Assembly: GCA_040388535.1 (NCBI GenBank)
Contig: JAZKBR010000002.1
Coordinates: 1,148,838 to 1,212,837, forward strand
DNA length: 64,000 nucleotides
Direction of reading: 5' to 3'
Source of the DNA: Gemmatimonadota bacterium
Lineage (GTDB): Bacteria > Gemmatimonadota > Gemmatimonadetes > Gemmatimonadales > GWC2-71-9
The notes under the pieces are model-generated. The model did no database searches and was not told where the DNA came from. It saw nothing but the letters and a program-made list of their open reading frames with translations. Made by a program: the position numbers and the translations under genes. This document shows positions 29,337-57,083 of this stretch, piece by piece. The first letter of the stretch is position 1. Each line of letters starts with the position of its first letter.

Positions 29337-32300
29337 CCGACTTCTCGGATACCCCACGCGCCCTTTTCGCCAACCGGCGAGACACCCAGTCTCCGGATCA
29401 TCGACTGAGTTGGCCCTGGGAGCCGCCCGAGTCGTTCTCGCGCTGCCTCCCGCTTTCCTTCCGTGTTTCCGCCAATCGAGTTCTCAAGAATTGCGATTGC
29501 TGCGAGGATTTCGGCCTGATCCTTCGCGTCATGGCGGTCGATTTCCTCTATCTGCCGCTCAAGTCTCGCGAGTGCGCCCGCTGCAGTGCCGGTCCTAATA
29601 CCGGTGAAGGCAACCCAGCGTGCATATGGTCCGGCAAAGCAGTCGTGATGAAGCTTCTTGTGAACCCCACTCGTACCAATCTTCCCTGCGAGCAGGGCCT
29701 TACGCTCTTTCCCGGCAAGTGCCAACACATCTGCCTTGCATAGTTTCCATGCCTGCTGAACCCATTCTGGACGTCTTTTGTCAAAGCGCGAGTCAAACGC
29801 GGCCATCGCGCTTTCTGCCTCGACAAGCCGTCCTTCGATGGCTAGGCCCAGCCCTTGATCATACGCCGCGCTAAGTAAGCAGATGCCCCACTCCTCAGAA
29901 CTAGAGGCCCGGATGGCTTCGCGCGCAAACGATATCTGTGCAGACGGGTTGCCTAGGCGACCCTCAACCAACGCCAGGCCAGATGCCGCGTTTGCGATGA
30001 ACGCTGGATTACCAAGGGCTTTGGCGATCGAGTAAGCTTGGTGAAGCACCGGCGCTGCCTCGAGGTAATTTCCCGTCTGACACAATGACACTCCTGCTCC
30101 GAGGAGAAGGCGGGTCGTGATTGAGTCTGCTGGGCATGTCTGGCTGATCGTCGTGACGCCCTCCAGGAGCACCGGGAGCGCCACCCGCGGACCACCACGT
30201 TGTGCCAAAAACCACGCACGGGCGTGATATGCGTGAAGTGCGTCGTGGCCGGCCAATGGAACGGCCATCAATTGGCTGGTCACATCGCCAAGCTGAGCAA
30301 TGTGTTTGTCGTTGCGACTTGAGGAAATGAGAGCGGTCGAGGTTGAGGCAGCTCTTGTACGGAGAGAAGGAGTGAAGCTGTTGTCCCCGGCAATGTTGAG
30401 CGAAGCCGTGATCGCCTCGCCAAGTCTCGCTCCTACTAGTCTTCCGAGAAAGCGATCGTTCGTAATCCGAAGGAGCCGTTCCTGTGCCAACTCAGTGTTG
30501 CTTAGCATTTGTGGCAAGGACTCGAGCGCCAGATGAGAGGCCTCCCAGCAGCCGATCTCTTGTAGTGCTTCCGCGCGAAGGAGGGCGAAGCCGGAGTGGT
30601 TCAGGCTGGCCGCGACGGTGGGCGCATCGGAGAGCATGGCAGCGAGGCGTCCGCTGTGACCTTGACGAAGCAGATCCTCACCAACCGTTAGAAGAAATTC
30701 CATTGCCTTCGCAGGCGTCCTCCCTCGCCCAAGATGCCACCCAAGTTCTAACGGATCTACCTCAGTTGAACTCACTCCGTGTTGCATCAGGTGGCTTCCG
30801 ATAATGTCGTGGAGCGAAGCACGATGCGAACAGCTAAGGCTGGCATAGGCACAATCCCTCGCCAGTTGTGAGGCAAACGAGACGCGCGCATTGGCTGAAA
30901 CGAAAATATTGTTGGCGGCCAGTGTACGCAGTGCCCGCGCCGCCGCAGGAAGAGACAGCCCTATCCATTCGTATAGCTCAAGGTGATCCATGCGTGAACC
31001 GAGCAAGGAAGCCAACTGCACAAACGCAAGTGCCTCATCGTCGACGGCGAGCAGGGCACTTCTGATAGCCTCGGAGTGGCTGTCGGCCGGCGCTAGAGGT
31101 GTATCCTCATGCAAGGCACTGAAGGAACTACGGAACCTTGGCTTCCCTGCGCGTTGCCACTCGGTAGCGATTGCGCTCAGCGTACTTGGGATGCCTGAAG
31201 CATACTCTATGATCGCACGCACATCCTGAAAGTGCTGCATATCGAGCGGGCCTGTGATGCCCACAATAAGTTCGCGGGCGTCATCACTTGATAGCGGATC
31301 AAGGTCGACGGTCTGTACCCACTCGTTTGGTATAGCGATCAAAGCGGCGGCGTGACTAGTATGGCCGATCCGATGAATCTGGGCTGAGAGCAAGATCATC
31401 ACCGGCTCCCGGAGCAGGCGACGAAGTAGGTAGTGAATAATGGCCGATGATTGCTCGTCCACCAGGTGTGCATCATCGATGACGAGCAGCACCGGCTGCT
31501 CGCCTGCTATTGCGGAGATCAGAGCGGATATGGCCTCAGCAAGGCAAACGTGTGCGGCAGGAAGTGAGGGCTCGTCTGTGGTCGAGATCCCGGGGAAGTA
31601 GTCCGCGAGGCTAGGTGCCCAACTAGCGAGGACCTTGAGGTGCGCAGGAGAAATCGCTCTGGCGCCGGGGTGATTGCATAAGGCGGTCACGAGCGAGAGA
31701 ATCCCGCCCAAAGCGATTCTCTGTTCGGCTGCAGCGCAGCGGATCTGAAAGACGGCTGCTCCTCGTAAGTTGATTATAGTTGCCAGTTGGCTTGCGAGGA
31801 CCGACTTCCCGATGCCCACACACCCGCGAAGCAGGAGATGCGGCGAGGCGCATGCGGTTGCCCGCTCCCATATTTCGAGACATCGTTGGGTTTCTTGAGA
31901 ACGACCGGAGAGTCCTCGATCTGCGTAGGCCGAGGTAGGCTGGTCAGCCAATCCGCCGATGTGACCGGACGGGAGCGAAGCAAGTCGCAGCCGCGTCGCG
32001 ATCCGTTCAAAGTCTCCGCTTGGCACTGCGCCAAGCTCGGTGGCAAGTCGCCGCTTCCAGTCATCGAACACCCTAAGTGCTCCGATCCGGTCACCCACTA
32101 TGGTGCGCGCCTCGAGCTGGGCCCGCGCTGCCTCCTCACTCAAATGATCCAAGGCTCGCAAACGCTCCGCAACTTCTTCCATCCACCGAGCGTTCCCTTG
32201 CCGTCGAGACTCGCTTAGCTGGCCTGACAAGACCGACTGGATTCGCGGAAGCAATCGAATTCGCTGAGCGTCGCACCATTGTTGAAAGTCCGGAGCGTCA

Positions 32301-32668
32301 TCTATGCAAAATTCCTCCAGAAAACTCGCAGGGAAAAGAGTTGAATCGAAGGCGACTTCAAGGGAATCGAGATCCGTGGTGACTCGCCCTTGAATCAGAC
32401 GGACAGCGTCCCTGCTTGAGTCAAATGCGTCAGCACCAAGTCTCCCACGAAGTACAGACAGTGCGGTTGCCAGGGAATGCCTGGCCTCCTCCATCGCACT
32501 CGCCGGCCAGAGCAAGGTCGCCAGTTTATCCCGCCGATGCGCCACCGGCCTCTCCACCGCGAAATAGACCAGCAGCGCCAGATGCTTCCTGGTCCGGAAC
32601 CGGATCGGGTCGCCATTCGGCGCCCGGAGCTCCGGGCTCCCAAGGACGGTGAGATGAAAGGGGTTCAC
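29333..32668 (-). CDS. Large BTAD/SARP-type regulator with AAA ATPase and TPR regions
   Basis: 1111 residues on the minus strand from a GTG with GAGGAG six bases upstream. The N-terminal winged helix resembles Trans_reg_C (FRTRKHLALLVYFAVERP, HRRDKLATLLWP, ARHSLATALSVLRGRLG), followed by a bacterial transcriptional activator domain (LEEFCIDDAPDFQQWCDAQR, about residues 90-240). The ATPase domain has Walker A GCVGIGKSVLA and Walker B PVLLVIDDAHLVDE. The C-terminal 500 residues look like helical TPR repeats. No LuxR-type helix-turn-helix is present. This layout fits signal-integrating activators; the signal is unknown. Codon use is less GC-biased than in most neighbours. Confidence 0.85.
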   Translation of the reverse strand: MNPFHLTVLGSPELRAPNGDPIRFRTRKHLALLVYFAVERPVAHRRDKLATLLWPASAMEEARHSLATALSVLRGRLGADAFDSSRDAVRLIQGRVTTDLDSLEVAFDSTLFPASFLEEFCIDDAPDFQQWCDAQRIRLLPRIQSVLSGQLSESRRQGNARWMEEVAERLRALDHLSEEAARAQLEARTIVGDRIGALRVFDDWKRRLATELGAVPSGDFERIATRLRLASLPSGHIGGLADQPTSAYADRGLSGRSQETQRCLEIWERATACASPHLLLRGCVGIGKSVLASQLATIINLRGAAVFQIRCAAAEQRIALGGILSLVTALCNHPGARAISPAHLKVLASWAPSLADYFPGISTTDEPSLPAAHVCLAEAISALISAIAGEQPVLLVIDDAHLVDEQSSAIIHYLLRRLLREPVMILLSAQIHRIGHTSHAAALIAIPNEWVQTVDLDPLSSDDARELIVGITGPLDMQHFQDVRAIIEYASGIPSTLSAIATEWQRAGKPRFRSSFSALHEDTPLAPADSHSEAIRSALLAVDDEALAFVQLASLLGSRMDHLELYEWIGLSLPAAARALRTLAANNIFVSANARVSFASQLARDCAYASLSCSHRASLHDIIGSHLMQHGVSSTEVDPLELGWHLGRGRTPAKAMEFLLTVGEDLLRQGHSGRLAAMLSDAPTVAASLNHSGFALLRAEALQEIGCWEASHLALESLPQMLSNTELAQERLLRITNDRFLGRLVGARLGEAITASLNIAGDNSFTPSLRTRAASTSTALISSSRNDKHIAQLGDVTSQLMAVPLAGHDALHAYHARAWFLAQRGGPRVALPVLLEGVTTISQTCPADSITTRLLLGAGVSLCQTGNYLEAAPVLHQAYSIAKALGNPAFIANAASGLALVEGRLGNPSAQISFAREAIRASSSEEWGICLLSAAYDQGLGLAIEGRLVEAESAMAAFDSRFDKRRPEWVQQAWKLCKADVLALAGKERKALLAGKIGTSGVHKKLHHDCFAGPYARWVAFTGIRTGTAAGALARLERQIEEIDRHDAKDQAEILAAIAILENSIGGNTEGKREAARERLGRLPGPTQSMIRRLGVSPVGEKGAWGIREVG

Positions 32669-32703
32669 TGATGGCTCCTCAGGCTGGGGGAGGTCCCGGC
32701 CAG

Positions 32704-38666: not shown

Positions 38667-38921
38667 ATGTCCATCGGACGCCGTTTCCTCAATGCTGGTC
38701 TCTCTGTTCTGTTCCTCGTCGGCATCCAGACCTACGCCAAGGCCGAAGATGCCGGCGGCGGGCTCTGGTTCTGCGCTTACAACGGCTCGTTCTGCACCTT
38801 CACCGACGGCTCGTACTGGTCGGGCTGCCTCACCGGCTACGAGTCCGGCTACATCTGGACCTTCGTCGCCAACACGATGTGCACCTCGTACACCCCGAAG
38901 CAGGGCGCCGGCGGCAACTAG
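38667..38921 (+). CDS. Small secreted four-cysteine protein, unknown
   Basis: 84 residues from ATG 38667 with AGGAG eight bases upstream. A signal peptide (LSVLFLVGIQTYAKA) leaves a mature peptide of about 60 residues rich in Gly, Tyr, Trp and Ser, with four Cys (LWFCAYNGSFCTF, WSGCLTGYE, NTMCTSYTP) that could make two disulfides. No family is recognised. It is followed by a propeller lipoprotein, as the second Cys-rich peptide (41286) is. This recalls the pairing of small NVEALA peptides with propellers in Bacteroidota, without sequence similarity. Confidence 0.7.
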   Translation: MSIGRRFLNAGLSVLFLVGIQTYAKAEDAGGGLWFCAYNGSFCTFTDGSYWSGCLTGYESGYIWTFVANTMCTSYTPKQGAGGN

Positions 38922-39008: not shown

Positions 39009-40097
39009 GTGAAAGTGATGTCACGCAGTACCAGCAGCATTGTTCTCCTTCTCCTGGCGGGGTGCGGCGGTGAACGCGCACCCGCGCCAGCGGCTCCGCC
39101 ATCGCGCGTGGCGCCGGCGATGCCGACGCTGGTGGCGATGCCCACCAGCAACGACGTCGCCGCGTCACCGCATTCTCCGACGTCGCCGATTCGCATCGGC
39201 CTGCATGGTGATGTGTTGCTCGCCGATCTCTCGCTCGACGGCAAGGTCTTGCGCACCATTGATACGCTGGGCCACGTGCACTGGCAGGCGGGGCGACGTG
39301 GCGAGGGGCCGGGTGAAGCGCGGCTCGCGTTGCCGCTCGAGATTACCGATTCAAGTATCATGGCATTCGATCTTGCCACCCGCCGGCTCACCGAATGGGA
39401 TTCCACCGGCAAGATGTTGCGCACCACGTTGTCGTTACCGCGCATTCCCCTTGCGCGGACACGCGAGAACGAGTGGCTCGGCTGGGAGCCCGATCAGCCG
39501 CGCTATGGTGTGGTGCTGGTGGATGCCGAAGGGCACACGCGCGAAGTGCTGGACCACGCCGAGGCGCACTATGTGGAGATGTTCCCGGCAGTGAGCGATC
39601 CGCGGATGATCGTGCCGCCGGCGCTGGGGAGCTGGCGCGGCGGGATCGTGGTCGCGAACGGGAAGACGTATCAGCTCGCGCTGTATGACTGGAACGGTAT
39701 GCTGAAGCACACCGTCAGCAGGGTGTTGCCCGAGAATCATCTTTCGGCGAAGCAGGTCGATGCCGAGCTTGGCGGACTCGCCGGCCGGCCGGGGCAGCGG
39801 AGCGAGAATCAGGAGTTGCGGCGGGCGCAGCTCGCGGCGCAGGTACGGCCGTGGTTCACGCATCTCACGCCGCTGGGACTTGATAGTGCGGGCCGCATCT
39901 GGGTCGTGGGGCAGCAAGGCGATACGACCTTTGCGGAGGTCTTCACGGCCGAGCAGTTCGTGGGACGCATCGTATTGCCGTGCGCAGGATTCCAGGGGCG
40001 GTGGGCGATGCGCGGTGAGTGGTTGGCGCTGGTCTGCGCGCCGGATGATGCGAGTGCCGTGGGAGATGCGGTGGTGAAGCGGTGGAGGGTGAGGTAG
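39009..40097 (+). CDS. Six-bladed beta-propeller lipoprotein
   Basis: 362 residues from GTG 39009 (ATG 39018 possible). The lipobox is LLLAGC, followed by a Pro/Ala-rich tether (ERAPAPAAPPSRVAPAMP). The signature GRRGEGPGEA lies near residue 97. Blades show DLSLDGKVLRTIDTLGHVHW, MAFDLATRRLTEWDSTGKML, YGVVLVDAEGHTREVL and GLDSAGRIWVVGQQGDTTFA. It is co-oriented with the Cys-rich peptide gene 87 bases upstream and may share its promoter. Probable location is the periplasmic face of a membrane. Confidence 0.85.
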   Translation: MKVMSRSTSSIVLLLLAGCGGERAPAPAAPPSRVAPAMPTLVAMPTSNDVAASPHSPTSPIRIGLHGDVLLADLSLDGKVLRTIDTLGHVHWQAGRRGEGPGEARLALPLEITDSSIMAFDLATRRLTEWDSTGKMLRTTLSLPRIPLARTRENEWLGWEPDQPRYGVVLVDAEGHTREVLDHAEAHYVEMFPAVSDPRMIVPPALGSWRGGIVVANGKTYQLALYDWNGMLKHTVSRVLPENHLSAKQVDAELGGLAGRPGQRSENQELRRAQLAAQVRPWFTHLTPLGLDSAGRIWVVGQQGDTTFAEVFTAEQFVGRIVLPCAGFQGRWAMRGEWLALVCAPDDASAVGDAVVKRWRVR

Positions 40098-40300: not shown

Positions 40301-40329
40301 TTGACGCAGTAAGACTTTGCCGCTACCGT
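40301..40329 (+). promoter_or_regulatory. Candidate promoter of the 40389 regulator
   Basis: TTGACG (40301-40306), 17 bases, TACCGT (40324-40329), about 60 bases before the GTG start. The same layout (TTGACG, 17, TAGCGT) occurs at 41162-41190. Confidence 0.5.
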
Positions 40330-40388: not shown

Positions 40389-41063
40389 GTGACCGTTGCC
40401 GCCAGGCCTACTGTAGTGGTTGCAGATGATTACCCCCTCGTCTCGAAGACCCTCCTACGGATGGTGGCTCAACGGTTCAACGGCGTCGAGGCGGTCCAAT
40501 GTCTCGAGACGCTCGCGACCGCGCTGGAGGAGCATCAGCCCGACATCGCGCTCGTGGACGTCCGGATGCAGGAGGAGACGTCGACGCTGGATGTGTTGCC
40601 GCAGCTGATGGAGATATCGTCGGCAACACGCTTCATCTTGATCACGGGCTTCCCTGATTGGGCGCCGGCGGGGCGGCTATTCGCCCTCGGCGCGAGAGGA
40701 CTTCTTGCGAAGCCATTTGTGCCCAAGGAACTCTGGCGGGCGATTGATGTCGTCCATTCCGGAGGCTCATATTTGTCCGAAAGTCCCCTAATGCGAGACG
40801 GTACAAGGGTTCTCCGGCCCTTGAAGCAACTTTCCGAGACCCAGGCCAAGGTATTCGCGCTGTTGAGGCAGGGGCTTTCCTATGCACAGATCGAGGAGCG
40901 TATCGGTCCAAAGGAGAGCACGATCGGGAAACATGTGCGCTTTGTTCGGGAAAAGCTCGGGATCGCCACCGAGCCAGGGTACGTCCGATGGGAGCATATC
41001 GTGTGCCCGTGTATGGATCGCCTGGAAGACCGATTTCCGCGTGGGCCGTCCTCTGCCCGCTGA
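40389..41063 (+). CDS. NarL/FixJ-like response regulator
   Basis: 224 residues from a GTG. The receiver domain has VVVADDYP (acidic pair), phospho-acceptor DIALVDVRMQEE (Asp in VDVR), FILITGFPDW and KPF. The C-terminal region (LSETQAKVFALLRQGLSYAQ, then IEERIGPKESTIGKHVRFVR) is a LuxR/sigma-70-region-4-like helix-turn-helix. A Cys pair (VCPCMD) sits near the C-terminus, which is unusual and could be redox-active or metal-binding. No kinase gene is adjacent. The next gene, 222 bases downstream, is the Cys-rich peptide of the HTTM cluster, so it may control that cluster. Confidence 0.85.
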   Translation: MTVAARPTVVVADDYPLVSKTLLRMVAQRFNGVEAVQCLETLATALEEHQPDIALVDVRMQEETSTLDVLPQLMEISSATRFILITGFPDWAPAGRLFALGARGLLAKPFVPKELWRAIDVVHSGGSYLSESPLMRDGTRVLRPLKQLSETQAKVFALLRQGLSYAQIEERIGPKESTIGKHVRFVREKLGIATEPGYVRWEHIVCPCMDRLEDRFPRGPSSAR

Positions 41064-41161
41064 GAGTATGAAACGAGTATCCGCCTCGAATGGGTTGAAG
41101 GTGTTCACCGAAGCTTGGACGGCTCAATTGGATAGGGGCTTTCGCCTTCAGATCCCCCACG

Positions 41162-41190
41162 TTGACGTCCTATCCTGTGAACCGTAGCGT
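41162..41190 (+). promoter_or_regulatory. Candidate promoter of the Cys-rich peptide cluster
   Basis: TTGACG (41162-41167), 17 bases, TAGCGT (41185-41190), about 95 bases before the ATG at 41286. The -35 is identical to that of the regulator at 40301. Confidence 0.5.
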
Positions 41191-41285
41191 TCCAGTCGTC
41201 GCTGAGCTTGAGTTGAATCGGTCGTGTTGCTCTCACCCGAGCACTGGCGACACCTGAACCATCTTCCCTTCCCAAGGAGAATCAG

Positions 41286-41555
41286 ATGCGAAGGACCGAC
41301 AAGATCACGGCTATTGCCACACTAGTGACCATGCTCGCGCTGTTTGGCGGCAGCTCGCAGGAAGCACAGGCGCAGGATGCGCTGGGGGGGGCGTGCATCA
41401 TGTGCGTCGAGTCCTGCAATGGCGTGAACCCGACCGGGATGTGTCAGGCCATGACCGGGTGCGGTGCGGAGGGTCAGTGCATCAACGGTACAGCGACCGG
41501 ATGCGACTGGGACACCGACAGCCAGGATGAGCGGATCTTCTGCTTCCAGGCCTGA
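41286..41555 (+). CDS. Small secreted eight-cysteine protein, unknown
   Basis: 89 residues with AAGGAG six bases before the ATG. The signal peptide (IATLVTMLALFGGSSQEAQA) leaves a mature part of about 60 residues with eight Cys: GGACIMCVESCNG, GMCQAMTGCGAEGQCING, TGCDW and FCFQA. Even number and dense spacing suggest four disulfides or a metal site. It also has several Glu and Asp residues late in the chain (DWDTDSQDERI). No family is recognised. It heads a run with a DsbA-like thioredoxin, a propeller, an HTTM protein and a DCC protein, all potential handlers of this peptide. Confidence 0.75.
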   Translation: MRRTDKITAIATLVTMLALFGGSSQEAQAQDALGGACIMCVESCNGVNPTGMCQAMTGCGAEGQCINGTATGCDWDTDSQDERIFCFQA

Positions 41556-41639
41556 TTCGGTAAGTGCTCGGACGTCGCCGCGACCTCTGTGGCGACGTTC
41601 GAGCATCGGGTATCTACCATTTTGCCCTGCGAGACTCAG

Positions 41640-42317
41640 ATGTCAGAACCGAACACAAGCATTATTTCCCGAGTCATGATGACAGTTGCCGTATCATGCG
41701 CCGTGGTCACCACGGGGCTCGTTGTACGGCGAGAGCTATTCACACCGCCCCCCGTAGCTGCGGCCGGCGTACCACGCCCCGTGAAAGGATGGGAGTCTTT
41801 CCAAGAAGGGGGGCAACTCCTGGGAGCTGCGAATGCGCAGATCAAGATGGTCGTATTTTCGGATTTCCAATGCGGTTTCTGTCGAAAGTTTGCCCTCGAG
41901 ACCTGGCCGGAGATCCATGCGAAGTATGGTGATAAGGTCGCCATGGTAGTCCAGCACTGGCCGCTGAATGGCCACAGCGAAGCGTACCCAGCGGCACGAG
42001 CAGCCGAGTGTGCTGGCAGGCAGGGAAAGTTCGAGCAATACAGTAAGGCCTTGTTTAGCCAAAGCGACTCGATCGGCAAGAAGGCGTATGGGCGATTTGC
42101 CGTCGAGGCCCAAGTTCCTGACACGATTGCATTTTCCGCCTGCGTGGCTGAACCAGGGAAGGTGGCGGTCATCGAACGCGGAATGGCGGGTGCTACAACA
42201 CTGGGCTTGACTGGCACCCCATCAATTATCATTGACGGCATGCTCTCACCTAGCGGAGCGCTCTCGCGTGTCACGTCAATGCTTGACGAAGCACTCAAGG
42301 CCAGGGAATCGCGTTGA
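41640..42317 (+). CDS. Membrane-anchored DsbA-like thioredoxin-fold protein
   Basis: 225 residues. One N-terminal membrane segment (VMMTVAVSCAVVTTGLVV) anchors a thioredoxin-fold domain with active site CGFC (Cys78-Cys81), the typical VFSDFQCGFCRKF start, an HWPLNGHSEAYPAARAAEC helix region and the cis-proline loop GTPSIIIDG. It matches the DsbA/BdbD group that makes or rearranges disulfides of exported proteins. ATG 41640 is chosen because the in-frame upstream start would add a region without signal features. The TGA overlaps the TTG of the propeller gene. Likely substrate: the Cys-rich peptide upstream. Confidence 0.88.
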   Translation: MSEPNTSIISRVMMTVAVSCAVVTTGLVVRRELFTPPPVAAAGVPRPVKGWESFQEGGQLLGAANAQIKMVVFSDFQCGFCRKFALETWPEIHAKYGDKVAMVVQHWPLNGHSEAYPAARAAECAGRQGKFEQYSKALFSQSDSIGKKAYGRFAVEAQVPDTIAFSACVAEPGKVAVIERGMAGATTLGLTGTPSIIIDGMLSPSGALSRVTSMLDEALKARESR

Positions 42318-43582
42318 TCGCAATTGCTGGCGAACTTGGGAAGCCCGTCGGGCTGATCGTCGCACTTGGTATCCTCGCGTGTGGCGCGCCGACTGGGGGG
42401 CCTGACCAAAGTAAGGATCCCGTAGCGCCAAGCCCGGTTGAGCTTGGTGGGGTCCACTTAGTCGTGGATACTCTCATCCCCGTACTTCGGATCGATGGCA
42501 CGTCAGCACGCTTCTCAGAGGTGGGTGGGGTCTTCGCCTCGTTGTCTGGAGTAATCGCCATCCTTCAACGACAAGACAATGCTGTTCGGCTCTTCGGTAT
42601 TGGCGGGAAGGAGATTGCGACCTTTGGCCGTGCTGGCGAAGGACCTGGCGAGTTCCGGTTCATTTCTCGTCTGGGGTGGATAGCCGACACGCTCTGGATC
42701 ACTGACATGGGCCTGCGACGAGTTACGCTGATCTCTCCAAGTGGTGCGTTTCTACGGGCATTTCGATACCCGACGCCCCACGCCGAGCCGGAGGATTCCG
42801 CGAGTTTCCCGGTCTACGGTGCCTCAACCAGCTTTCCATGGGCCATTCTGTCAGACTCCCAATTTGTGACTTTCGCCAATGAGCGGCCCGGCAGTCCGGC
42901 GGTTCCCGAAGGAGTCACTGCTTCCGCCCTCCTTACCGGGGCAAGTGGCGCGATTCAGCGACGCATTGCCTACCCGCAACCCGACGATGCCGAGGGGTAT
43001 GTGGAGTTTGAGGCCAAGAACGGACCGGCAGCTCGCCATTCTGTGCCACTCGTTCAGAAGCCTCAGTGGGGAATTTCGCCGAATGGCCGGTACATAGCAG
43101 TGACTTCCGCGCTTCTGACGCGTTCGAAGGATCTTCGATACTTCACCGTGCAGGTGTTGTCGACAAGCGGAGACACGGTCTTTTCGCGGGATCTGTCGGT
43201 TGCGGCCGTGAACGTACCACCGGAGGTACGAGCCTCAGAAATGGGTGAGGTCAGCCATAGCCAGATGATACGGCTTTCTGCGAAAGATCCCTCATCCGTC
43301 TCGGTCGCGATTTCGAACCGTATTCCAAATACTTTCCCGGGGGTTACGGGGCTGCTTGTTGCCGAGGATGGCCGAGTGCTCTTGGGCCAGTATTCGGTGG
43401 CCAACGGCCAGCCTTGGGTAGTGCTCGACCGATGTCAGGGTACTCCCATCGCCTCCTTCATCGCTCCAAGGGGAACATTCCTCACCAGCGTTAATCAAGG
43501 CCTTGTGTACGGTGTTGAGCGGGACTCGGTCGGAGTGGAGAGTGCAGTCGTCTTCCGAATGCCGCCGGCTCCGAAGTGCTAG
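42314..43582 (+). CDS. Six-bladed beta-propeller lipoprotein (subfamily B)
   Basis: 422 residues from a TTG that overlaps the thioredoxin stop. The lipobox is LGILAC at about residue 23. The signature GRAGEGPGEF is near residues 105-114, followed by ADTLWITDMGLRRVTLISPS, QWGISPNGRYIAVTSAL, LLVAEDGRVLLGQYSVANGQ and IAPRGTFLTSVNQGLVYGVE. Related in layout to 7660 and 34486. Codon use is less GC-rich than in the propeller island downstream. The coupling with a thiol oxidoreductase and HTTM protein suggests a shared exported process. Confidence 0.87.
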   Translation: MIAIAGELGKPVGLIVALGILACGAPTGGPDQSKDPVAPSPVELGGVHLVVDTLIPVLRIDGTSARFSEVGGVFASLSGVIAILQRQDNAVRLFGIGGKEIATFGRAGEGPGEFRFISRLGWIADTLWITDMGLRRVTLISPSGAFLRAFRYPTPHAEPEDSASFPVYGASTSFPWAILSDSQFVTFANERPGSPAVPEGVTASALLTGASGAIQRRIAYPQPDDAEGYVEFEAKNGPAARHSVPLVQKPQWGISPNGRYIAVTSALLTRSKDLRYFTVQVLSTSGDTVFSRDLSVAAVNVPPEVRASEMGEVSHSQMIRLSAKDPSSVSVAISNRIPNTFPGVTGLLVAEDGRVLLGQYSVANGQPWVVLDRCQGTPIASFIAPRGTFLTSVNQGLVYGVERDSVGVESAVVFRMPPAPKC

Positions 43583-43590
43583 CGCCAGGC

Positions 43591-44943
43591 ATGAGAGGGC
43601 TCCACGCCCGCTGGAGCGACGTGCGACGGAAGGGTTTGCTCGCAGTCGATGCCTCGTCGGTCGCGGTCGTGCGGATCCTGATGGCTGCAATCATCCTGTG
43701 GGAGGTAGTTAGGTATTTCACGCACAATTGGATCAAGAGCTACTGGATAGATCCATCATTCCATTTCACCTACTTCGGGTTCGGATGGGTACACCCTTGG
43801 CCCGGCAATTTGTTGTACCTCCATTTCGCTTTGATGGGCCTTGCGGCTCTTGCAGTGCTTTTCGGACTGTACTACAGGGCTGCGAGTGTCTTTCTTGCAA
43901 TCAGCTTTGCCTACCAATTCCTGCTTGAACAGGCGCGATACCTCAACCATTTCTACGCGGCGCTACTTATACTCGTGCTATTGGCCGTCCTACCGGCGCA
44001 TGCAGAATGGTCCATCGACCGCAGGCGTCGTCAGGATTATGAGCCCGCGACTGTACCGGCGTGGGTGATATGGGTGCTGCGCTTTCAAGTTGGTGTAATT
44101 TACTTCTACGGCGGGCTCGCGAAACTCAACGTTGATTGGCTCGGCGGTGCTCCTACCGGATTGTGGATGAATCACCGAGCGACTGTGCCCTTTGTCGACT
44201 TCTTGCTGAGGCATGGGCTGCATGGTGTATTCTTTGGGGTTGGAGGAATGCTATTTGACCTCTTTGTGGTGCCTTTCCTCTTGCTCAGGCCCACGCGCCC
44301 CTACGCATTCATCGCTGCGATTTGCTTCCATTTTATCAACGCCCAGCTCTTCCCGATCGGAATCTTCCCATGGATGATGGTCGCAACAACCACGATCTTC
44401 TTCGTACCGAGTTGGCCCCGAAGTGTCTTGACCTATTTCTCTGCGCCGAGAGTGCCACGAAGTAAGGAGGTCTCGACCTTTGACGAACCGCGCCGGCCGT
44501 TGCTGGCCTTCCTTGCTGCGTTCATGGTAGTCCAATTGACAGTCCCCTTTCGACACTGGCTCTACCCCGGTGATGTGGCCTGGACCGAAGAGGGGCATCG
44601 ATTTTCGTGGAGGATGATGCTCCGCGACAAAGCAGGTAGTGCACAGTTTTTGGTGGTCTCTGGCTCCGACACAGCGTGGGTGAGCGCACAGCAGTACTTG
44701 CGCCCATGGCAGATGGGAGCGATGATAGGCAACCCCGACATGTTGCTCCAGTTTGGTCATCATCTCCGCGATGAATTTCAACGACGGGGCAAGAATGACG
44801 CACGCGTGTATGTGCGTTCGCTAGTGTCCTTGAATGGCCGCAAAGCAATTCCGATCATCGCCGATACCAGCGAGCTGGGCCGTATCCCCCGTACCCTGGG
44901 TCACGCCAACTGGATCACCGCGGGGCCCGGTGACAAGGAGTGA
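43591..44943 (+). CDS. HTTM / vitamin K-dependent gamma-carboxylase-like membrane protein
   Basis: 450 residues from ATG 43591 (GTG 43576 overlaps the previous stop and is possible). Several membrane segments occur between residues 22 and 290. The family block YFYGGLAKLNVDWLGGAP is complete; its Lys178 aligns with the Lys used by the mammalian gamma-glutamyl carboxylase. CFHFINAQLFPIGIFPWMMV and EEGHRFSWRMMLRDKAG are also typical. Human GGCX carboxylates Glu residues in secreted proteins with vitamin K. In bacteria the reaction is mostly unproven. The C-terminal 150 residues are probably extracytoplasmic. It is flanked by a propeller and a DCC thiol protein. Confidence 0.88.
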   Translation: MRGLHARWSDVRRKGLLAVDASSVAVVRILMAAIILWEVVRYFTHNWIKSYWIDPSFHFTYFGFGWVHPWPGNLLYLHFALMGLAALAVLFGLYYRAASVFLAISFAYQFLLEQARYLNHFYAALLILVLLAVLPAHAEWSIDRRRRQDYEPATVPAWVIWVLRFQVGVIYFYGGLAKLNVDWLGGAPTGLWMNHRATVPFVDFLLRHGLHGVFFGVGGMLFDLFVVPFLLLRPTRPYAFIAAICFHFINAQLFPIGIFPWMMVATTTIFFVPSWPRSVLTYFSAPRVPRSKEVSTFDEPRRPLLAFLAAFMVVQLTVPFRHWLYPGDVAWTEEGHRFSWRMMLRDKAGSAQFLVVSGSDTAWVSAQQYLRPWQMGAMIGNPDMLLQFGHHLRDEFQRRGKNDARVYVRSLVSLNGRKAIPIIADTSELGRIPRTLGHANWITAGPGDKE

Positions 44944-44965
44944 CAGCCAGGTTCACGACGGAAAG

Positions 44966-45355
44966 GTGAACCCGAGCAGCGCGCGCTGGACGGTCCTTTT
45001 CGATGGCGGATGTCCCCGCTGCCGACGGACAATCAAACTAATGCAGGCATGGCTTCCTGATATTAGTGTTGAAGCGGTTGACTTCACCACGGCCGGGGAA
45101 GGCGACACTCCTACCCTTCGTGCCGTGTCACTCCACAACGCAATGAGCGCTATGCATGTGCTTGCGCCGGACGGAACAACGTACCGCGGTTATGATGCCT
45201 TTGTTGCACTTGCGCGCGCCTCGAGGCGCTGGAAGGTGGCTGGCTTGATCGGACAGCTCCCATTGCTTCGTTGGATCGGGCGTATTGTGTATGGGCTGTT
45301 TGCCAGAAGTCGACGGCGTGTAGGATGCGAGGCAGGGACCTGCACATTAATCTAG
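44966..45355 (+). CDS. DCC family thiol-disulfide oxidoreductase-like protein
   Basis: 129 residues from GTG 44966, which puts the conserved WTVLFDGGCPRCRRTIKLM at the usual distance from the start; a GTG at 44930 overlapping the HTTM stop would add 12 residues. The DCC motif with CPRC lies near residue 15. The C-terminal helices (LLRWIGRIVYGLFARSRRRV) end with CEAGTC, another Cys pair. DCC proteins are commonly found with HTTM proteins and may shuttle electrons or support quinone cycling. This is the last gene of the 41286-45355 cluster. Confidence 0.85.
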   Translation: MNPSSARWTVLFDGGCPRCRRTIKLMQAWLPDISVEAVDFTTAGEGDTPTLRAVSLHNAMSAMHVLAPDGTTYRGYDAFVALARASRRWKVAGLIGQLPLLRWIGRIVYGLFARSRRRVGCEAGTCTLI

Positions 45356-49130: not shown

Positions 49131-51272
49131 AGCAACGTCCGGCATCACTGCCTTGCAGCACTCGCCTCGTTAGCCGTCGCCTTCGCGGCCCCGCTCCACG
49201 CGCAAGACCTCACCGATCGCGCGAACACACTCGCGACGAAGCTCGAAGGCGCGTCCATCACCGAGCGACAGGCGAACGCGGGCGCAGCGAGAGCGCTGCT
49301 CACCGAACTCAACGGCCGAGCACTCGATCGCGCCTCCGTCCGCGCGATTGCGCGAGTCTCTTTGGCGATGGCGGCACCGCTCTCGCCGATCGGGATCGTC
49401 CCGTCACGCGAGGAAGCGCGGTGGCGGAGCAGTGCCGTGCGGGCACTGGTCCGGCTTCTCTCGCGGGACACCCTCGACCTCTGGAGCGCAGAGCAGCTGG
49501 AAAGGATCGCCCCGTATCCCAGCATCTGGGCCGAACCCGCAGTGGAGCTCAAGCTGCTTCGCAAGCTGCGCGTGCCCAGCAACAATTTGCCGCGCGCTGT
49601 CGCAGCCGCCGTGGCCGGGCTCGAGATCGAAGCCGGTGATCCACTCGCGGCAGTGAAACTCCTCGAACGCCCGTTTCCTGGCGCCCTGGGCGAGGCGCAG
49701 CGACTGCACCTTCTTGCTGCGGCACACTTTGCCATTGGTCGGGATTCGCTCGCGAGCGCGACCTACTACGCCGGGGCGGCGGCCATCCGCGACTCGGCCG
49801 ACGCCAATGTGTTCGGGCGGGAACTGCAGGAGATCGCTGAGGGTGCGGAGCTGCGCGAGTGGCGATCGACCGCGCTGGTGCCGACGGCGCGAGCGGCGTG
49901 GCTCGGGAAGTTCTGGGCCCGCGAGGACCTCGCCGATGGCCGCCTGCCGGGCACCAGATTGCGGGAACAGTTCTCCCGCTGGCGCCTGGCGCTGCAGCAG
50001 TATCGCTGGGACACCGACGGCACCCTCGCGTTGGGCGGCATACCGCCTCGTGGCGCAGCGCAGGATGGCAGCGAGGGTGACGTGCTCTTTCCGCGCGACG
50101 AAGGGACGGCCCCACCGGTCTATGACGCGCGCTATTTCGAGCGAAACAGCGTGATCGATGACCGCGGGCTACTAGTGCTCCGGCATGGCGCGCCCACGAA
50201 CACCATTACCTCGGCAGGCGTTGCGGCGCTGGCCCAGGAGTCCCTGGTCTGGAGCGTGGCGAGTGCGAACGGCGATGGCGGGCCGGAGCTTCGTATCGTC
50301 TCCTTCTCACGAGCGGCGGTGCGCAAGATTGGTGTGCCATCTTTTCATTTCGGGATGCTCGCGCGCAACGTCCCGATGGGTGATCTGATGTCGCTCTGCC
50401 AGGTCGACGCCCGTCTCTGTGCTCTCGCCGGCCCCGGAGATGCGCGGGTACGTGCGAATCTGATCCTGCAGAACTTCACGGCCATGCGGACGAACGCCGA
50501 GGTGACGCAGGGGAACCCGCAGCGGTTCAACCATCCGCTTCGGGCGGTCGTGCAGGCATTTGGCATCCCCGACGGTGGCGTGCTTGTGGTCATGGCGGTT
50601 CCGCTGGCAAGTCTTGCCGCTGCGCACGACGCCGGCTCGGCGGCCACATCACTGAAGCTGCGTGTAATAGTGGGTGACCCGCTGAGTGGCGAAATTACCG
50701 GCACGGTCGACACGATTCGCCATTGGCGACTGGCGCAGCCAGTGCCAGTGGCGGGATTCCTGAGTTTCCTCACCATCGTGCCGGCAGGAATCGGCACCTG
50801 GCAGGTCGCGGTGACGGCGGCGGACATTGCTGGTGAAACCGGGGGTACCACCTGGATCAGCAATGTTCCCGTGATCGCGACGGCAAACGACGCGCTCACA
50901 CTCGGTGATCCGATCCTGGGCCGCGTCGGCGGGGGGCTCGAATGGCAGTGGCAAGGGCAGCCGGTACTGCTCAATCCGACCAACGCATGGCACACTACGG
51001 AGCTGGCGACCTTGTCGGTCGTCGCGAGCGGCCTGCGCGCCGGTGAAGACTACGGCTTGCGGCTCGAGCTCTGGCCCAGTGATACCACGGCGAAGAGCCC
51101 GCGCCTCACGATTACTTCCGACCTTCGCGCCAACGCATCGACGATGATGCTGCAGCGTTCGCTCGATCTGTCGAGGATCGGGGCTGGCGACTATCGCCTG
51201 GTGCTTCGTCTTTCAGGTAAGAATGGTGCGACGACCACCATTCGGGAGCGACGGGTTGCGGTGCGGAAGTAG
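49125..51272 (+). CDS. Secreted GWxTD-domain-like protein, probable ATT start
   Basis: 715 residues if translation starts at ATT 49125. The frame from there encodes a clear signal peptide (RSNVRHHCLAALASLAVAFA, then APLHAQ), and the first ATG is inside the mature domain at 49368. The helical N-terminal half has TPR-like repeats. The second half has the WLGKFWAREDLADG segment and VIDDRGLLVLRHGAPT, which match the WLTAFWNTRD and VFDDRGVVYIRQGPPD blocks of the 59603 paralog, the GWxTD domain. C-terminal beta sandwich. Function unknown. The next gene starts 64 bases downstream. Confidence 0.75.
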   Translation: MRSNVRHHCLAALASLAVAFAAPLHAQDLTDRANTLATKLEGASITERQANAGAARALLTELNGRALDRASVRAIARVSLAMAAPLSPIGIVPSREEARWRSSAVRALVRLLSRDTLDLWSAEQLERIAPYPSIWAEPAVELKLLRKLRVPSNNLPRAVAAAVAGLEIEAGDPLAAVKLLERPFPGALGEAQRLHLLAAAHFAIGRDSLASATYYAGAAAIRDSADANVFGRELQEIAEGAELREWRSTALVPTARAAWLGKFWAREDLADGRLPGTRLREQFSRWRLALQQYRWDTDGTLALGGIPPRGAAQDGSEGDVLFPRDEGTAPPVYDARYFERNSVIDDRGLLVLRHGAPTNTITSAGVAALAQESLVWSVASANGDGGPELRIVSFSRAAVRKIGVPSFHFGMLARNVPMGDLMSLCQVDARLCALAGPGDARVRANLILQNFTAMRTNAEVTQGNPQRFNHPLRAVVQAFGIPDGGVLVVMAVPLASLAAAHDAGSAATSLKLRVIVGDPLSGEITGTVDTIRHWRLAQPVPVAGFLSFLTIVPAGIGTWQVAVTAADIAGETGGTTWISNVPVIATANDALTLGDPILGRVGGGLEWQWQGQPVLLNPTNAWHTTELATLSVVASGLRAGEDYGLRLELWPSDTTAKSPRLTITSDLRANASTMMLQRSLDLSRIGAGDYRLVLRLSGKNGATTTIRERRVAVRK

Positions 51273-51336
51273 TCCGGGCAATCGAGATGGACGCGCCGCC
51301 TTGCCTGAAGGAGTAGGTGACTTCCTCCGCACTACC

Positions 51337-52548
51337 TTGAGGTGGAGCGTCTTGATCCTGAGCTGTCTGCCCACGATCGGCGTCGCGCAGTCATCCAAAC
51401 CGCCAGAGACCGCTCTCGTGCGATCGACCGGCCCAGGCCGTTGGGGCGCACCCTCTCTCGCCATTGAGGAAGTGCGTGTCGGCGGCGCAGGATCGGGAGT
51501 AGAGCTCGGATCGGTCGATTGCATTGCCGCTCTCCCCGATGGTGGCGTGGCAGTCTTCGATAGCCGGGGCCTGAGTGGTCCGGCGCTGCGTGTTCTCGAT
51601 TCGCACGGAGTGCTTCGCCGTTCAATCGGACGCCAGGGCGCAGGCCCCGGCGAATTTGGGGCGCGCGGAATTTCCGGCTGCCTCGCCGCCAGGGATGATG
51701 GCTCGCTGCTCATGCTCGACTACAGCAACAACCGCGTGAATCGCTGGACCGCAAACGGCGAGGTGCTCTCGAGTATTCCGCTGCCGCCTGGGCTGGGGGG
51801 CCCCGCGCCGTACCTGCTCGCCGGACCGGCGCAGTCGGTCTATATCAGGGTGGCCGTGACGCGACCCCGCGCCGGCGTCGGGATGGACTGGAGCGCCTAC
51901 GGATTCGTGCGGGTTGCCGCCGATGGCAAAGTCCTCGACACGCTGCCACGACCCCGATCAACTGGCTCGAACGCGCCGCCACGACTCTTCGATCCGATGG
52001 AATTCATCCTTCCTCAGGCTGATGGTCGCATCGTACGATCGTTCTCTGATCGTCTCGCCTTTGACGTATGGCTGCCCGGAGCCACTCGGGCCGCGATCTC
52101 GGCGGAGCGCCCGCTCCCTGCCACGCGAGTGCTGCCGGCCGAGCGGAGCGAACTCGAGGCGGGGCTCGCATTCTGGACTGCGCAAACGAAAGGGATGGTA
52201 CCGAACCCTGGAGTCGCGACGACGAAATCCGCCTTCGCCGATATGCGCGTTGACCTTGAGGGTCGCCTCTGGTTCCAGCGCAACGTCACCGCGGTGAAGG
52301 GTGCGATGGTCCATCCGCCGGGGCTTCCGGGGCAGCCCGCACCACCGGGGCAGATGTACCAGGTGCCGCCGGTCTTCGCCGCTTTCGATCGCAGCGGTGC
52401 CTACCTCGGCGAAGTGCGGCTGCCGCTGCGGCAGGCGTACCTGCTCAACTTCACCTTCGCCGGTGATCATGTCTGGGGGACTTTCACCGATGCAGAGGGG
52501 GTGCCGGTGGTCGTGAAGTGGCGGATTGTTGGGGCGGGGAGGAGGTAG
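51337..52548 (+). CDS. Secreted six-bladed beta-propeller protein (subfamily A)
   Basis: 403 residues from TTG 51337, which gives a compact signal peptide (RWSVLILSCLPTIGVAQ); the frame is open to 51223 inside the previous gene. Subfamily A marks are ELGSVDCIAALPDGGVAVFD, GRQGAGPGEF (about residues 98-107), FAAFDRSGAYLGEVRLPLRQ and GVPVVVKWRI. It is close to the 45924 protein. No exact Shine-Dalgarno fits this start, so the N-terminus is uncertain. Confidence 0.82.
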   Translation: MRWSVLILSCLPTIGVAQSSKPPETALVRSTGPGRWGAPSLAIEEVRVGGAGSGVELGSVDCIAALPDGGVAVFDSRGLSGPALRVLDSHGVLRRSIGRQGAGPGEFGARGISGCLAARDDGSLLMLDYSNNRVNRWTANGEVLSSIPLPPGLGGPAPYLLAGPAQSVYIRVAVTRPRAGVGMDWSAYGFVRVAADGKVLDTLPRPRSTGSNAPPRLFDPMEFILPQADGRIVRSFSDRLAFDVWLPGATRAAISAERPLPATRVLPAERSELEAGLAFWTAQTKGMVPNPGVATTKSAFADMRVDLEGRLWFQRNVTAVKGAMVHPPGLPGQPAPPGQMYQVPPVFAAFDRSGAYLGEVRLPLRQAYLLNFTFAGDHVWGTFTDAEGVPVVVKWRIVGAGRR

Positions 52549-52551
52549 GGC

Positions 52552-53568
52552 ATGCGATCGTCCTTGCTCGCGATTCTCTTCACCCTCGTCACTGCTGCCA
52601 ACGCGCAGCGCGCCCCGACGACGGCCGTGATCTTCGGCATCGGCGCCCCTTCGGGGAATGACTCGCCCGCGAAGCTCGGGCCGGTGGCGATCGATCGCAG
52701 CGGCCGGATCTTCCACCTCGACGTGGCCGAGGCGTCGATTGTGGCGTACTCGGGCGCGGGGAAGCGACTCTTCGCCATCGGCCGACGAGGCGATGGGCCG
52801 GGCGAGTTCCGGAAACCAGTCGCAATGGTGATCGATAGCGCCAACCATCTGCTCGTGATGGACGAGGCGCAGCGAGCGGTACATCGATTCGATCTGTCGC
52901 GGTCAGGCCCGCCGCGCCTTCTCGACCGGATTCCGGTCCCGCTGACCGGCCATTCGATCTGTATTCTCGGGAGCCAGCTGGTGGTGCTGAAATCATCGTC
53001 GGCAAGTGCCCCGGTGATTCACCTGCTCGCACTCCAGGATGGCGGTGCCACAATCGTGCGCAGCTTCGCGCCGGCCAACATCGTTGACAAGCGCGCCAGC
53101 AGCATCGTGATCCGGATGATGCTCCTCGATGAAGGCCGACTCGCCTGCAACTCAGCGCAGCAGCTGGTTGCGCTCGCAGCCGAGGGGAGTGGCACGTTCC
53201 ACGTGTATGACAAGCGCGGCAGCGAAGTAGCGAGGGGAGCGGTTCCGGGGTTCGCCGAAATACCGGTGATGCAAGACGGCCCCGAGCGGTTCATAGTACG
53301 GGCAGGGCCCGGAGGGGTGATGTCCATCTCGGCGATGGAGGTCGCGGCCGATGGCAGTGTCGCGCTGCAGGCGAGTACCCAACCTCGCGATTATTCGTCC
53401 GCGCAGGGGCCATCGCAGCAATTCTGGTTCGACCCCGCTGGTCGGCTCACGCGAAAGGCAGCTCCCACGCGGATGTGGCGCGTTGCCGCTCGCGACGGCA
53501 TACTCCTCTGCGGTCTCGCGGAGCCGGAGCCCACGCTGGTGGTGACGACTGCGGGGAGTTGTCCTTAG
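52552..53568 (+). CDS. Secreted six-bladed beta-propeller protein
   Basis: 338 residues, starting three bases after the previous stop. Signal peptide SSLLAILFTLVTAANAQ. The first blade reads LGPVAIDRSGRIFHLDVAEA, then GRRGDGPGEF at about residues 77-86, and VMDEAQRAVHRFDLSRSG. Three Cys (HSICILG, LACNSAQQ, ILLCGLAE) and a C-terminal Cys (AGSCP). Shorter than its neighbours. It is probably co-transcribed with 51337. Confidence 0.84.
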   Translation: MRSSLLAILFTLVTAANAQRAPTTAVIFGIGAPSGNDSPAKLGPVAIDRSGRIFHLDVAEASIVAYSGAGKRLFAIGRRGDGPGEFRKPVAMVIDSANHLLVMDEAQRAVHRFDLSRSGPPRLLDRIPVPLTGHSICILGSQLVVLKSSSASAPVIHLLALQDGGATIVRSFAPANIVDKRASSIVIRMMLLDEGRLACNSAQQLVALAAEGSGTFHVYDKRGSEVARGAVPGFAEIPVMQDGPERFIVRAGPGGVMSISAMEVAADGSVALQASTQPRDYSSAQGPSQQFWFDPAGRLTRKAAPTRMWRVAARDGILLCGLAEPEPTLVVTTAGSCP

Positions 53569-53629
53569 CGCCAGCGACCGACTTGCGCCCCCACTATAGC
53601 ACGGGCACTTTTCGACCGCCTTCCCAGCT

Positions 53630-53674
53630 CATCGATCGTCCTATCGGCCCCCGCTATAGGGTATCGCTATCCGC
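53630..53674 (+). repeat. Shared 5' leader repeat, copy 2
   Basis: CAGCTCATCGATCGTCCTAT, then CGGCCCCCGCTATAGGGTAT and CGCTATCCGC; same as 49086-49130 apart from a few bases and an ATCG duplication. An extra partial CCCACTATAGC lies at about 53589. It leads into the lipoprotein gene at 53684. Confidence 0.8.
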
Positions 53675-53683
53675 ATTGCCACG

Positions 53684-54838
53684 ATGGCCTCCCTCCTGCT
53701 TGCCATCACCGGTTGCTCGACCGGTGCGCCTCGCAGTGCCACGAACGGGGCAGCGTCGAGCGGCGTGATCCCCGAACAGATCATCAGCGCGCGCGACACC
53801 ACCCCCGCATGCCCCCAGTGCGTCATCGCACTCGATTCTCTCACGACCCTCGGCCTCGAAGATGATTCGGTCACCCCACGCGACCCGACGAGCGTCGTTC
53901 AGGGAGCTGATCAGTTGTTCTATGTGGCGCCGATGTCGGAACAGGGGCGAGTCGGCGTCTATGGCTGGGACGGCCATCTGGTTCGACTGCTCGGCCGCAC
54001 CGGAGACGGACCAGGCGAACTCCGCTGGGCGGCCTCCGTGGCCGCCGCCCCGGATGGATCCCTCGGCGTGCTCGATTTCAACCGGATCCTCTGGTATCCA
54101 CTCCTGGGCGGCGCACCGATCACCCAAGTGCTCGACCAGCCCCTCGGAGAATTCCGGACGCTTGCGCTGCCGGGTCGTGGTCTCGTAGTGGCGACCGAGC
54201 AGTCGATGCCGGGTCGAGCGTTTGTGTATGTCGATTCATTGGGGAATCGCCGCGACTTTGGGGACTCCCTCAAGGCCCGCGCCACGGTCGGCGATGGCTT
54301 TGCACCCCATTCGCTCGCCGCTTCTGGCGGCGGCCACTTCTACGCGATGCCGTGGTACAACACACCCAGGATCGATGAATGGGACACGAACGGCCGCCTC
54401 CTCCGACGCTATCAGCTGCCGGCGCCGTGGTTCACACCATATGGGATCGAGCCACTCCGTGAACTGCAACGTGTCGGGGTGCGTGGCCTGCGGCTCGCCA
54501 TCTCAAGCAGCGCGTGGCGTGATAGGGCTGGACTGCTCTGGACCATCACCAACGTCGCCGATCCGCGCTGGAAGGTGGTCGCCGACATTGGCCAGAAGGA
54601 TGAACTGGGCGCCCGACAGCCACTCCTTTCCGGCTACGACAAGCGCCTGGTGCAGGATGCGATCATTGCGGTCTATCGTGTGACCGACACGTCTGTGGCG
54701 CTGGTTGCGTCGCGGCGCGTGGATATGCCACTCTCACGATTCCTCTCCGATAGTGTCGTGGCCGAGCGGACCCAGGCAGGTCGCGAGGATGTGGGGTTCA
54801 ATCTCTTCCGATACAGGCTCCGTGGGCTCTTGCAATGA
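53684..54838 (+). CDS. Six-bladed beta-propeller lipoprotein
   Basis: 384 residues from ATG 53684. The lipobox is LAITGC near residue 11, giving a very short n-region without a basic residue. The frame is open upstream through ATCCGC and ATTGCC of the leader repeat, so a start in the repeat is possible. The signature GRTGDGPGEL is near residue 104. Two adjacent Cys (TPACPQCVIAL) follow the lipid Cys. The last blade is LFRYRLRGL. The stop is 28 bases before the next GTG. Confidence 0.83.
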   Translation: MASLLLAITGCSTGAPRSATNGAASSGVIPEQIISARDTTPACPQCVIALDSLTTLGLEDDSVTPRDPTSVVQGADQLFYVAPMSEQGRVGVYGWDGHLVRLLGRTGDGPGELRWAASVAAAPDGSLGVLDFNRILWYPLLGGAPITQVLDQPLGEFRTLALPGRGLVVATEQSMPGRAFVYVDSLGNRRDFGDSLKARATVGDGFAPHSLAASGGGHFYAMPWYNTPRIDEWDTNGRLLRRYQLPAPWFTPYGIEPLRELQRVGVRGLRLAISSSAWRDRAGLLWTITNVADPRWKVVADIGQKDELGARQPLLSGYDKRLVQDAIIAVYRVTDTSVALVASRRVDMPLSRFLSDSVVAERTQAGREDVGFNLFRYRLRGLLQ

Positions 54839-54866
54839 TCACATCTCATCGCAGAGGAGCAACCGG

Positions 54867-56084
54867 GTGAATCGCGCCACCTTGCTCAGCACTGCCCTCG
54901 CGATCACGCCGGCGTTGCTCGCAGCCCAATCGCCGCAGGAACATCGGCGAATTCATGGAGACACGACCTTCGTCACCTCCTCGAAAGCCGCTCATGTTCC
55001 AATACTCGAAGCCACTCGACTCCGCACACTCACCGCTGGGCCCGATGGCGCTCCATTCGGCCGCATCGACGCACTGGCACTCGGCCCCAACGGCAGCCTT
55101 GCCGTGTTCGATGGCAACGGCAACACCGGCCCCGAGCTGAGTATCCTGTCGCCAGGTGCCAGCGCACTCAGGCGTATTGGCCGCGAGGGCGATGGTCCTG
55201 GTGAATATCGTGGCGGCGGGCCTGGGCTCGCGATTGCGGCCGACGGCACCATTCTGTTGCGTCAGTTGAAGGGCGTGATCAACCGTTATCGGGCCGATGG
55301 CCGATTCATTAACTCGTTCTTCATCAGTGGGATTGGCGGGCTCATCGACATCTTTCCCGGACCGCACCACACTTTCTACACCCACGCAGGGCCCACCCGC
55401 GGCGCCGCACAATTTTCATTTCTTCAGTTGCCACTACTCCAGCTGGACAGCATGGGAGTGATCCTCGATACCGTCCCGGCCCCGCCGCCAACAGCGGGTG
55501 CCGTTGATTCGAAGTTCGCTCTGTCGGTGCTTTGGACCGTCATTCCCGATGGCAGGAGGCTCGCACTCCGATCGGACAAGCTCGGATATACCCTACAGGC
55601 GCTAGAACCGAGGGCTAGCCTGCTCCGAACCGATGTCGAGGCGACGCCGCCACGATTTCTGCCAGAGGAGCGACAGGAATTGCAGCTCGTGCTCGACTTC
55701 GGCCAGCGGCTGCCGCCGGGGATGCGGAGCCCGATCACTCGCATGCCTGAGCTGAAACAGCTCCTCGCCGGGGCGCCTGCGTTCGACTGGTCGCAGCGCA
55801 TCTGGCTGCCGGTACACACCGCAGGCGTGAAGCAGGGAATCCGCGCGCTTGGCAGGCACGAGAGTGCTCGAGGCCAGGTTGAGTCCGTCAGCGTCAGCTA
55901 CGATGAACCACCAGAATTCGCCTCATTCGATCTCTCCGGTCACTACTACGGGCGCGTCCGCTTTCCCCTCGGCGCCACTCGGTTGGTGTTCTTCGGCAAC
56001 ACCGCGTGGGGAGTCATCACTGGCCCCGATGATGAGCCGGCACTCGCTGAGTTTCGGCTGCCGGCGGCGCTCGATGCTCACTAG
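54867..56084 (+). CDS. Secreted six-bladed beta-propeller protein (subfamily A)
   Basis: 405 residues from GTG 54867, with GAGGAG seven bases upstream; the frame extends to 54705 inside the previous gene but has no signal there. Signal peptide LLSTALAITPALLAAQ. Subfamily A marks are APFGRIDALALGPNGSLAVF, GREGDGPGEY (about 105-114), FASFDLSGHYYGRVRFPLGA and GNTAWGVITGPDDEPALAEF. It overlaps the next gene by 11 bases. Confidence 0.86.
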   Translation: MNRATLLSTALAITPALLAAQSPQEHRRIHGDTTFVTSSKAAHVPILEATRLRTLTAGPDGAPFGRIDALALGPNGSLAVFDGNGNTGPELSILSPGASALRRIGREGDGPGEYRGGGPGLAIAADGTILLRQLKGVINRYRADGRFINSFFISGIGGLIDIFPGPHHTFYTHAGPTRGAAQFSFLQLPLLQLDSMGVILDTVPAPPPTAGAVDSKFALSVLWTVIPDGRRLALRSDKLGYTLQALEPRASLLRTDVEATPPRFLPEERQELQLVLDFGQRLPPGMRSPITRMPELKQLLAGAPAFDWSQRIWLPVHTAGVKQGIRALGRHESARGQVESVSVSYDEPPEFASFDLSGHYYGRVRFPLGATRLVFFGNTAWGVITGPDDEPALAEFRLPAALDAH

Positions 56085-57075: not shown

Positions 57076-57083
57076 TCGAAGAT

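Follow-up and report, generated by a model that had tools for sequence, protein, structure and literature searches.

Do a small cysteine-rich secreted protein and the thiol-disulfide enzyme, beta-propeller and carboxylase-like protein encoded after it make up one system, and which of these neighbours truly belong to it? The question is raised by positions 41286 to 45355 of a 64,000-nucleotide stretch of a Gemmatimonadota genome (contig JAZKBR010000002.1; the whole stretch is called the window here), where genes for an 8-Cys peptide, a DsbA-like protein, an NHL-type propeller, a homologue of the vitamin K-dependent gamma-carboxylase (VKGC) and a DCC family protein follow one another. A preliminary description, made from the sequence of the window, had proposed that all five work together. 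Comparison across the phylum showed that the peptide and DsbA genes, usually with a propeller gene, form a recurrent neighbourhood, and that the VKGC and DCC genes are not recurrent members of it. The core genes and their upstream regulator are probably one copy of a widespread, shuffling Gemmatimonadota cassette which, judged from sequence, would export and oxidatively fold hypervariable disulfide-rich mini-proteins.

Recurrence of the peptide and DsbA genes

The peptide gene of the window (41286..41555, forward strand) has the Shine-Dalgarno sequence AAGGAG shortly before its ATG and a GC content of 0.54/0.54/0.80 at the three codon positions. Its 89 amino acid product is, as had been described, an 8-Cys secreted protein, with a signal peptide-like N-terminus and all 8 Cys in the mature part. 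The DsbA gene (41640..42317, forward strand) encodes a membrane-anchored Thioredoxin_4 protein with a CGFC motif (PF13462, E 4.6e-22). The entry point to the wider comparison was a weak match to the peptide in a sister species, which turned out to adjoin a DsbA gene. We inspected 24 genes of this DsbA subfamily from four families of Gemmatimonadota (the window, L026, L104 (two), L105, L106, L107 (two), L108-L115, L125, L126, L127, L132, L133, L135, L142 and L084); the neighbourhoods in other genomes were read mostly from lists of open reading frames (ORFs), and the peptide ORFs were picked by eye. Small, signal-bearing, Cys-rich ORFs, relatives of the window peptide gene, adjoined the subfamily DsbA gene in 23 of the 24 loci, for which P = 1.6e-11 even at an assumed 0.3 chance per locus (the ORFs having been chosen by eye), while three generic DsbA genes (L116, L086 and L094) had no Cys-rich signal-bearing ORF adjoining.

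As an independent check on the choices made by eye, 395 genomes of the phylum were searched with a profile built from 11 peptides (A7). Apart from its training rows the search returned 14 matches, five of which lay within 160 bp, on the same strand, of a separately found subfamily DsbA gene (G219, G023, G167, G287 C70 and G008, with only G008 known beforehand), compared to about 0.03 expected (P about 1e-10). The association of peptide and DsbA is more than chance.

An NHL-type propeller gene was adjacent in 17 of the 24 loci; instead of it, CarboxypepD_reg proteins were encoded in L114 and L127 and a PDZ protein in L126. Gene order varies; regulator, DsbA, peptide, propeller is a common one, and that of the window (peptide, DsbA, propeller) was found again in L105, L107, L115 and L142, with the DsbA and propeller genes overlapping as in the window in L107, in L115 from another family and in L142 from a third. 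DNA-binding regulators are often found upstream, of differing types (GerE, ECF sigma, AraC and response regulator). The preliminary description had made recurrence in related genomes the check on its proposal, and the peptide, DsbA and usual propeller passed it.

Paired cysteines and a putative dedicated folding enzyme

The peptides are 60-96 amino acids long and have little sequence in common across the cassettes beyond their Cys, a signal peptide near the start and, in many of them, an aromatic residue right after the last Cys. In 24 of 26 peptides the number of Cys in the mature part was even (P = 5e-6), as expected for paired cysteines. An AlphaFold model of the window peptide alone was too poor for use (pLDDT 52). 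Members of the DsbA subfamily are anchored in the membrane at their N-terminus and have a CxxC, a cis-Pro and a further invariant pair of Cys (C78-C81 and T193-P194 are invariant across 16 members, and the second pair is C124/C168), the CxxC and cis-Pro on a thioredoxin fold placing it among the DsbA/Thioredoxin_4 proteins. The structures closest to its profile in the PDB were those of exported DsbA proteins (4pwo and 7unn, E 1e-29). Since paired cysteines in the peptide and a membrane-anchored DsbA occur together in all but one of the loci, we infer that dedicated oxidative folding is the simplest account of the pair.

A periplasmic metal or redox role, in which the Cys-rich peptide would serve to bind metal or buffer thiols and be recharged by the DsbA, is an unlikely alternative. 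The Cys-richness of the peptides would suit it and the DsbA profile also reaches ScsC-like copper-resistance proteins in the PDB (E 1e-13 to 1e-15), but the closest structural relatives are the exported DsbA proteins and not ScsC, the even Cys counts go with irregular spacing and with no conserved CxxC or CxC metal clusters, and the turnover of peptide sequence is strong.

Copy number and sequence turnover

That turnover, together with the number of copies, suggests that the products interact with other cells. Searching with the window DsbA gave up to five subfamily copies per genome in the genus of the window. G005 has 5 copies and G002 has 4, and DsbA identity between copies within a genome was 0.35, the same as between genomes. 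The peptides are far more variable than the enzyme, with about 17-31% identity to the window copy compared to 31-39% for DsbA. In L132 (920-1359) a tandem pair of 60 amino acid peptides precedes one DsbA gene and shares ACCxTxFTSAxCCGxxCxSGWFNCSA; the mature parts are conserved, with a non-synonymous rate (dN) of 0.18 and a synonymous rate (dS) of 0.48 (dN/dS about 0.37), and the signal parts have diverged freely, with a ratio of about 1.

A bacteriocin-like or recognition system, in which the hypervariable peptides would target other cells, with the propeller or a different neighbour as immunity protein, receptor or scaffold, and which would work much as the sublancin operon does with its disulfide-forming BdbB, could explain the many diverged copies and the variable peptides, and we regard it as possible though tentative. 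The local regulators would fit it too, as would signs of movement: the 40.2-45.4 kb block of the window has a GC of 0.57-0.60 compared to about 0.65, which fits a block acquired as a unit, and transposase-like ORFs, read from ORF lists only, lie beside the cassettes in L107 (2490-3410) and L110 (108-776), consistent with mobility. However, a net acidic charge was found for 23 of the 26 mature peptides (mean -4.5), whereas antimicrobial peptides are typically cationic; scans of 17 peptides against Pfam and NCBIfam matched no family, toxin, bacteriocin and immunity families included, and the inspected cassettes had no dedicated exporter and no recurrent small immunity gene. The acidic charge and the lack of an immunity gene argue against a standard bacteriocin or classic antimicrobial peptide.

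Several observations weigh against a shared cassette for folding mini-proteins. The window peptide had no close orthologue among 60 relatives, two peptides had an odd number of Cys, and the start sites of some peptides were set by eye. For the subfamily DsbA of L135 the stretch inspected showed a propeller and no peptide, and several loci are without a propeller. Distances between DsbA proteins were uncorrelated with those between propellers (Mantel r = 0.09, P = 0.27), so that the parts do not behave as a fixed pair, propellers having been swapped between cassettes, or else the distances are saturated. The preliminary description had the propeller as receptor or scaffold; as a cognate receptor it is a candidate whose divergence does not follow that of the DsbA. 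We still consider the shuffling folding cassette the probable reading. Searches further afield were negative: plasmids had no match for the DsbA, and the peptide profile found nothing in the 189 genomes searched from the phylum to which a Myxococcota record (L035/G406) belongs, a result that is uninformative for want of a positive control there. No account of the combination was found in the PMC literature, a weak absence as subscription papers are mostly outside its coverage.

Propellers

The propeller gene of the window (42314..43582, forward strand) encodes a probable lipoprotein with a lipobox-like LGILAC and a GRxGEGPGEF block. Pfam alone gave no match for it, but a profile of four window propellers matched the NHL structures of TRIM2 and Thin (E 1.5e-15), and it has the NHL-related repeats of the NHL/6-bladed (PF17170 type) propellers. 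An AlphaFold model of the propeller from four rows was too poor for blades to be counted (pLDDT 37). Genes of this type are unusually abundant, with about 12 in the window (7660-58172), including paralogues side by side at 51223-58172, and 43 matches in the whole genome. Upstream of the cassette a second small secreted ORF (38667..38921, forward strand; 84 amino acids, 4 Cys in the mature part), which has no DsbA gene adjoining, lies directly before another NHL-type propeller gene (39009..40097, forward strand). In G037 (L027, 4861-6308), too, a small secreted ORF rich in Cys stands immediately in front of a propeller gene, with no DsbA, indicating that a peptide-propeller pair can occur alone.

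Organisation of the window locus

The five ORFs and the regulator upstream all lie on one strand, where the preliminary description had placed them, and Pfam matches confirmed the domains of the regulator, DsbA, VKGC and DCC proteins. It had also called the four genes after the peptide tightly spaced, and they are: the DsbA and propeller genes overlap, the propeller and VKGC genes are 8 nucleotides apart, and the VKGC (43591..44943) and DCC (44930..45355) genes overlap. The regulator (40389..41063, forward strand) is a response regulator with a receiver domain (PF00072, E 5.5e-13) and a sigma70-r4/LuxR-type helix-turn-helix; the VCPC attributed to its C-terminus lies near that end rather than at it. 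The similar promoters noted before the regulator and peptide genes were confirmed as promoter-like motifs, exact matches to TTGACG-N17-TACCGT (40301..40329) and TTGACG-N17-TAGCGT (41162..41190), both on the forward strand. The common form TTGACG-N17-TANCGT occurs exactly only at these two places in the window, where 0.44 matches would be expected by chance even with one mismatch allowed, and was absent from every other cassette. A further GC-poor stretch of the window (27000-32700, GC 0.56-0.61) encodes a MASE9-HD protein and a large BTAD/AAA regulator.

The VKGC-DCC pair

The HTTM protein, which had been described as gamma-carboxylase-like, proved to be a true VKGC homologue. Its HTTM and VKGC lumenal domains both score far above cut-off (PF05090, 266 bits, and PF22777, 134 bits), and residues 19-417 (399) of its 450 align with human VKGC, of 758 amino acids (E 3e-32). 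Mapped onto human VKGC structures (PMC12589487; PDB 9l20, 9bvk), it keeps the catalytic Lys218, Asn159 and His160 and the vitamin K pocket F286/F294/F299/W223/M401, its own catalytic and pocket residues being K178, N119, H120, W183, G218/G219, F246, N250, F254, F259 and M342/M343. The vitamin K hydroquinone site is kept. Human K217 is replaced by Ala, Y395 by His, N158 by Leu and R436 by Ala, the C99/C450 pair is absent, and the alignment stops near human residue 476, the propeptide-binding part being missing. The last gene of the run encodes a DCC1-like thiol-disulfide oxidoreductase family protein (PF04134, E 1.6e-18).

The preliminary description had suggested that the genes together could export, oxidise and perhaps gamma-carboxylate the peptide; as a full system this would have the VKGC and DCC proteins modify it by gamma-carboxylation after the DsbA has acted. 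The single low-GC operon of overlapping or nearly abutting genes, the kept catalytic and vitamin K residues and a VKOR family gene some 49 kb upstream of the window start would all be in keeping with this. But the VKGC domain is present in only 5 of the 395 phylum genomes, and the window copy is the only one inspected that adjoins a Cys-rich peptide gene, the others standing alone, with DCC (as in G010 of the same family, with no peptide adjoining) or behind imelysin genes (G330 and G289); VKGC neighbourhoods inspected in five other phyla had no peptide, DsbA or propeller partner adjoining. Furthermore, the mature window peptide is Glu-poor, its roughly 4 Glu forming no Gla-like cluster, the enzyme has no counterpart of the half of human VKGC that binds the propeptide, and three residues of the Glu pocket (Y395, N158 and R436) are changed. 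We consider modification of the peptide by all members together improbable, and gamma-carboxylation of it as possible but unsupported.

On its rarity and on the neighbourhoods of its other copies, VKGC was rejected as a core part of the cassette, so that of the proposed joint system the peptide, DsbA and usual propeller stand as a recurrent neighbourhood, but not the VKGC and DCC proteins. For the same reasons the VKGC-DCC pair is most plausibly a separate, rare module added locally to the tail of this operon, and it may tailor an exported product or act independently. In another Gemmatimonadota family (L041, 379-5693; L042, 1552-4064) VKGC ends a run of imelysin (PF09375), di-haem oxidoreductase (PF06537) and imelysin genes, and this connects bacterial VKGC with a setting of the iron-uptake type.

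Proposed mechanism and significance

In the folding cassette as we picture it, the neighbouring DNA-binding regulator would turn the genes on, and the peptide would be exported by Sec and have its signal removed. The DsbA, whose N-terminal helix would anchor it in the inner membrane and leave its CxxC on the outer side, would then oxidise or isomerise the paired cysteines, and the exported propeller might bind or present the folded peptide or its target. Should the window cassette have recruited a VKGC-type enzyme, such that the peptide is both oxidised by its own DsbA and gamma-carboxylated, or otherwise modified in a vitamin K-dependent way, it would be a bacterial counterpart of Gla-peptide maturation, but we think this very unlikely.

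Few secreted effectors are known from this phylum, and it has many diverged cassettes for disulfide-rich mini-proteins, each with its own putative folding enzyme. They provide new stable scaffolds to draw on and a clue to how bacteria common in soil and fresh water cope with their environment. The DsbA subfamily offers a handle for finding peptides that family searches miss, and in the window copy the core of a vitamin K carboxylase, intact by its look, stands in a testable genetic context.

Comparison with known systems

NVEALA peptides occur with 6-bladed propellers in Bacteroidota. The cassettes resemble that arrangement in that a short secreted peptide rich in Cys lies near a propeller of the PF17170 type, a likeness which we take as a lead only, but PF14055 matched none of the 17 peptides scanned, up to E 0.5. 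In SdpABC, an HTTM-family protein (SdpB) accompanies a peptide toxin with a disulfide, and the window likewise has an HTTM protein beside a secreted Cys-containing peptide; however, that protein scores 21 bits against the SdpB model TIGR04033, whose cut-off is 178.4, and the locus has no SdpA or SdpC. With human GGCX the window VKGC shares the catalytic residues and vitamin K pocket, and it differs from GGCX in its shorter length, partly changed Glu pocket and lack of a propeptide-binding part.

The sublancin operon of Bacillus subtilis SPbeta is sunA-sunT-bdbA-sunS-bdbB, and its BdbB forms the disulfides of sublancin (PMC6391423). Sublancin has a dedicated exporter/peptidase, SunT, and is S-glycosylated, whereas the cassettes have Sec signals and no SunT, and no peptidase-containing exporter or glycosyltransferase was noticed among the ORFs of those inspected; they also differ in having an NHL propeller and unrelated peptides, and in belonging to a Gram-negative-type phylum. 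What they have in common with the sublancin operon is a small secreted peptide encoded together with its own thiol-disulfide oxidoreductase.

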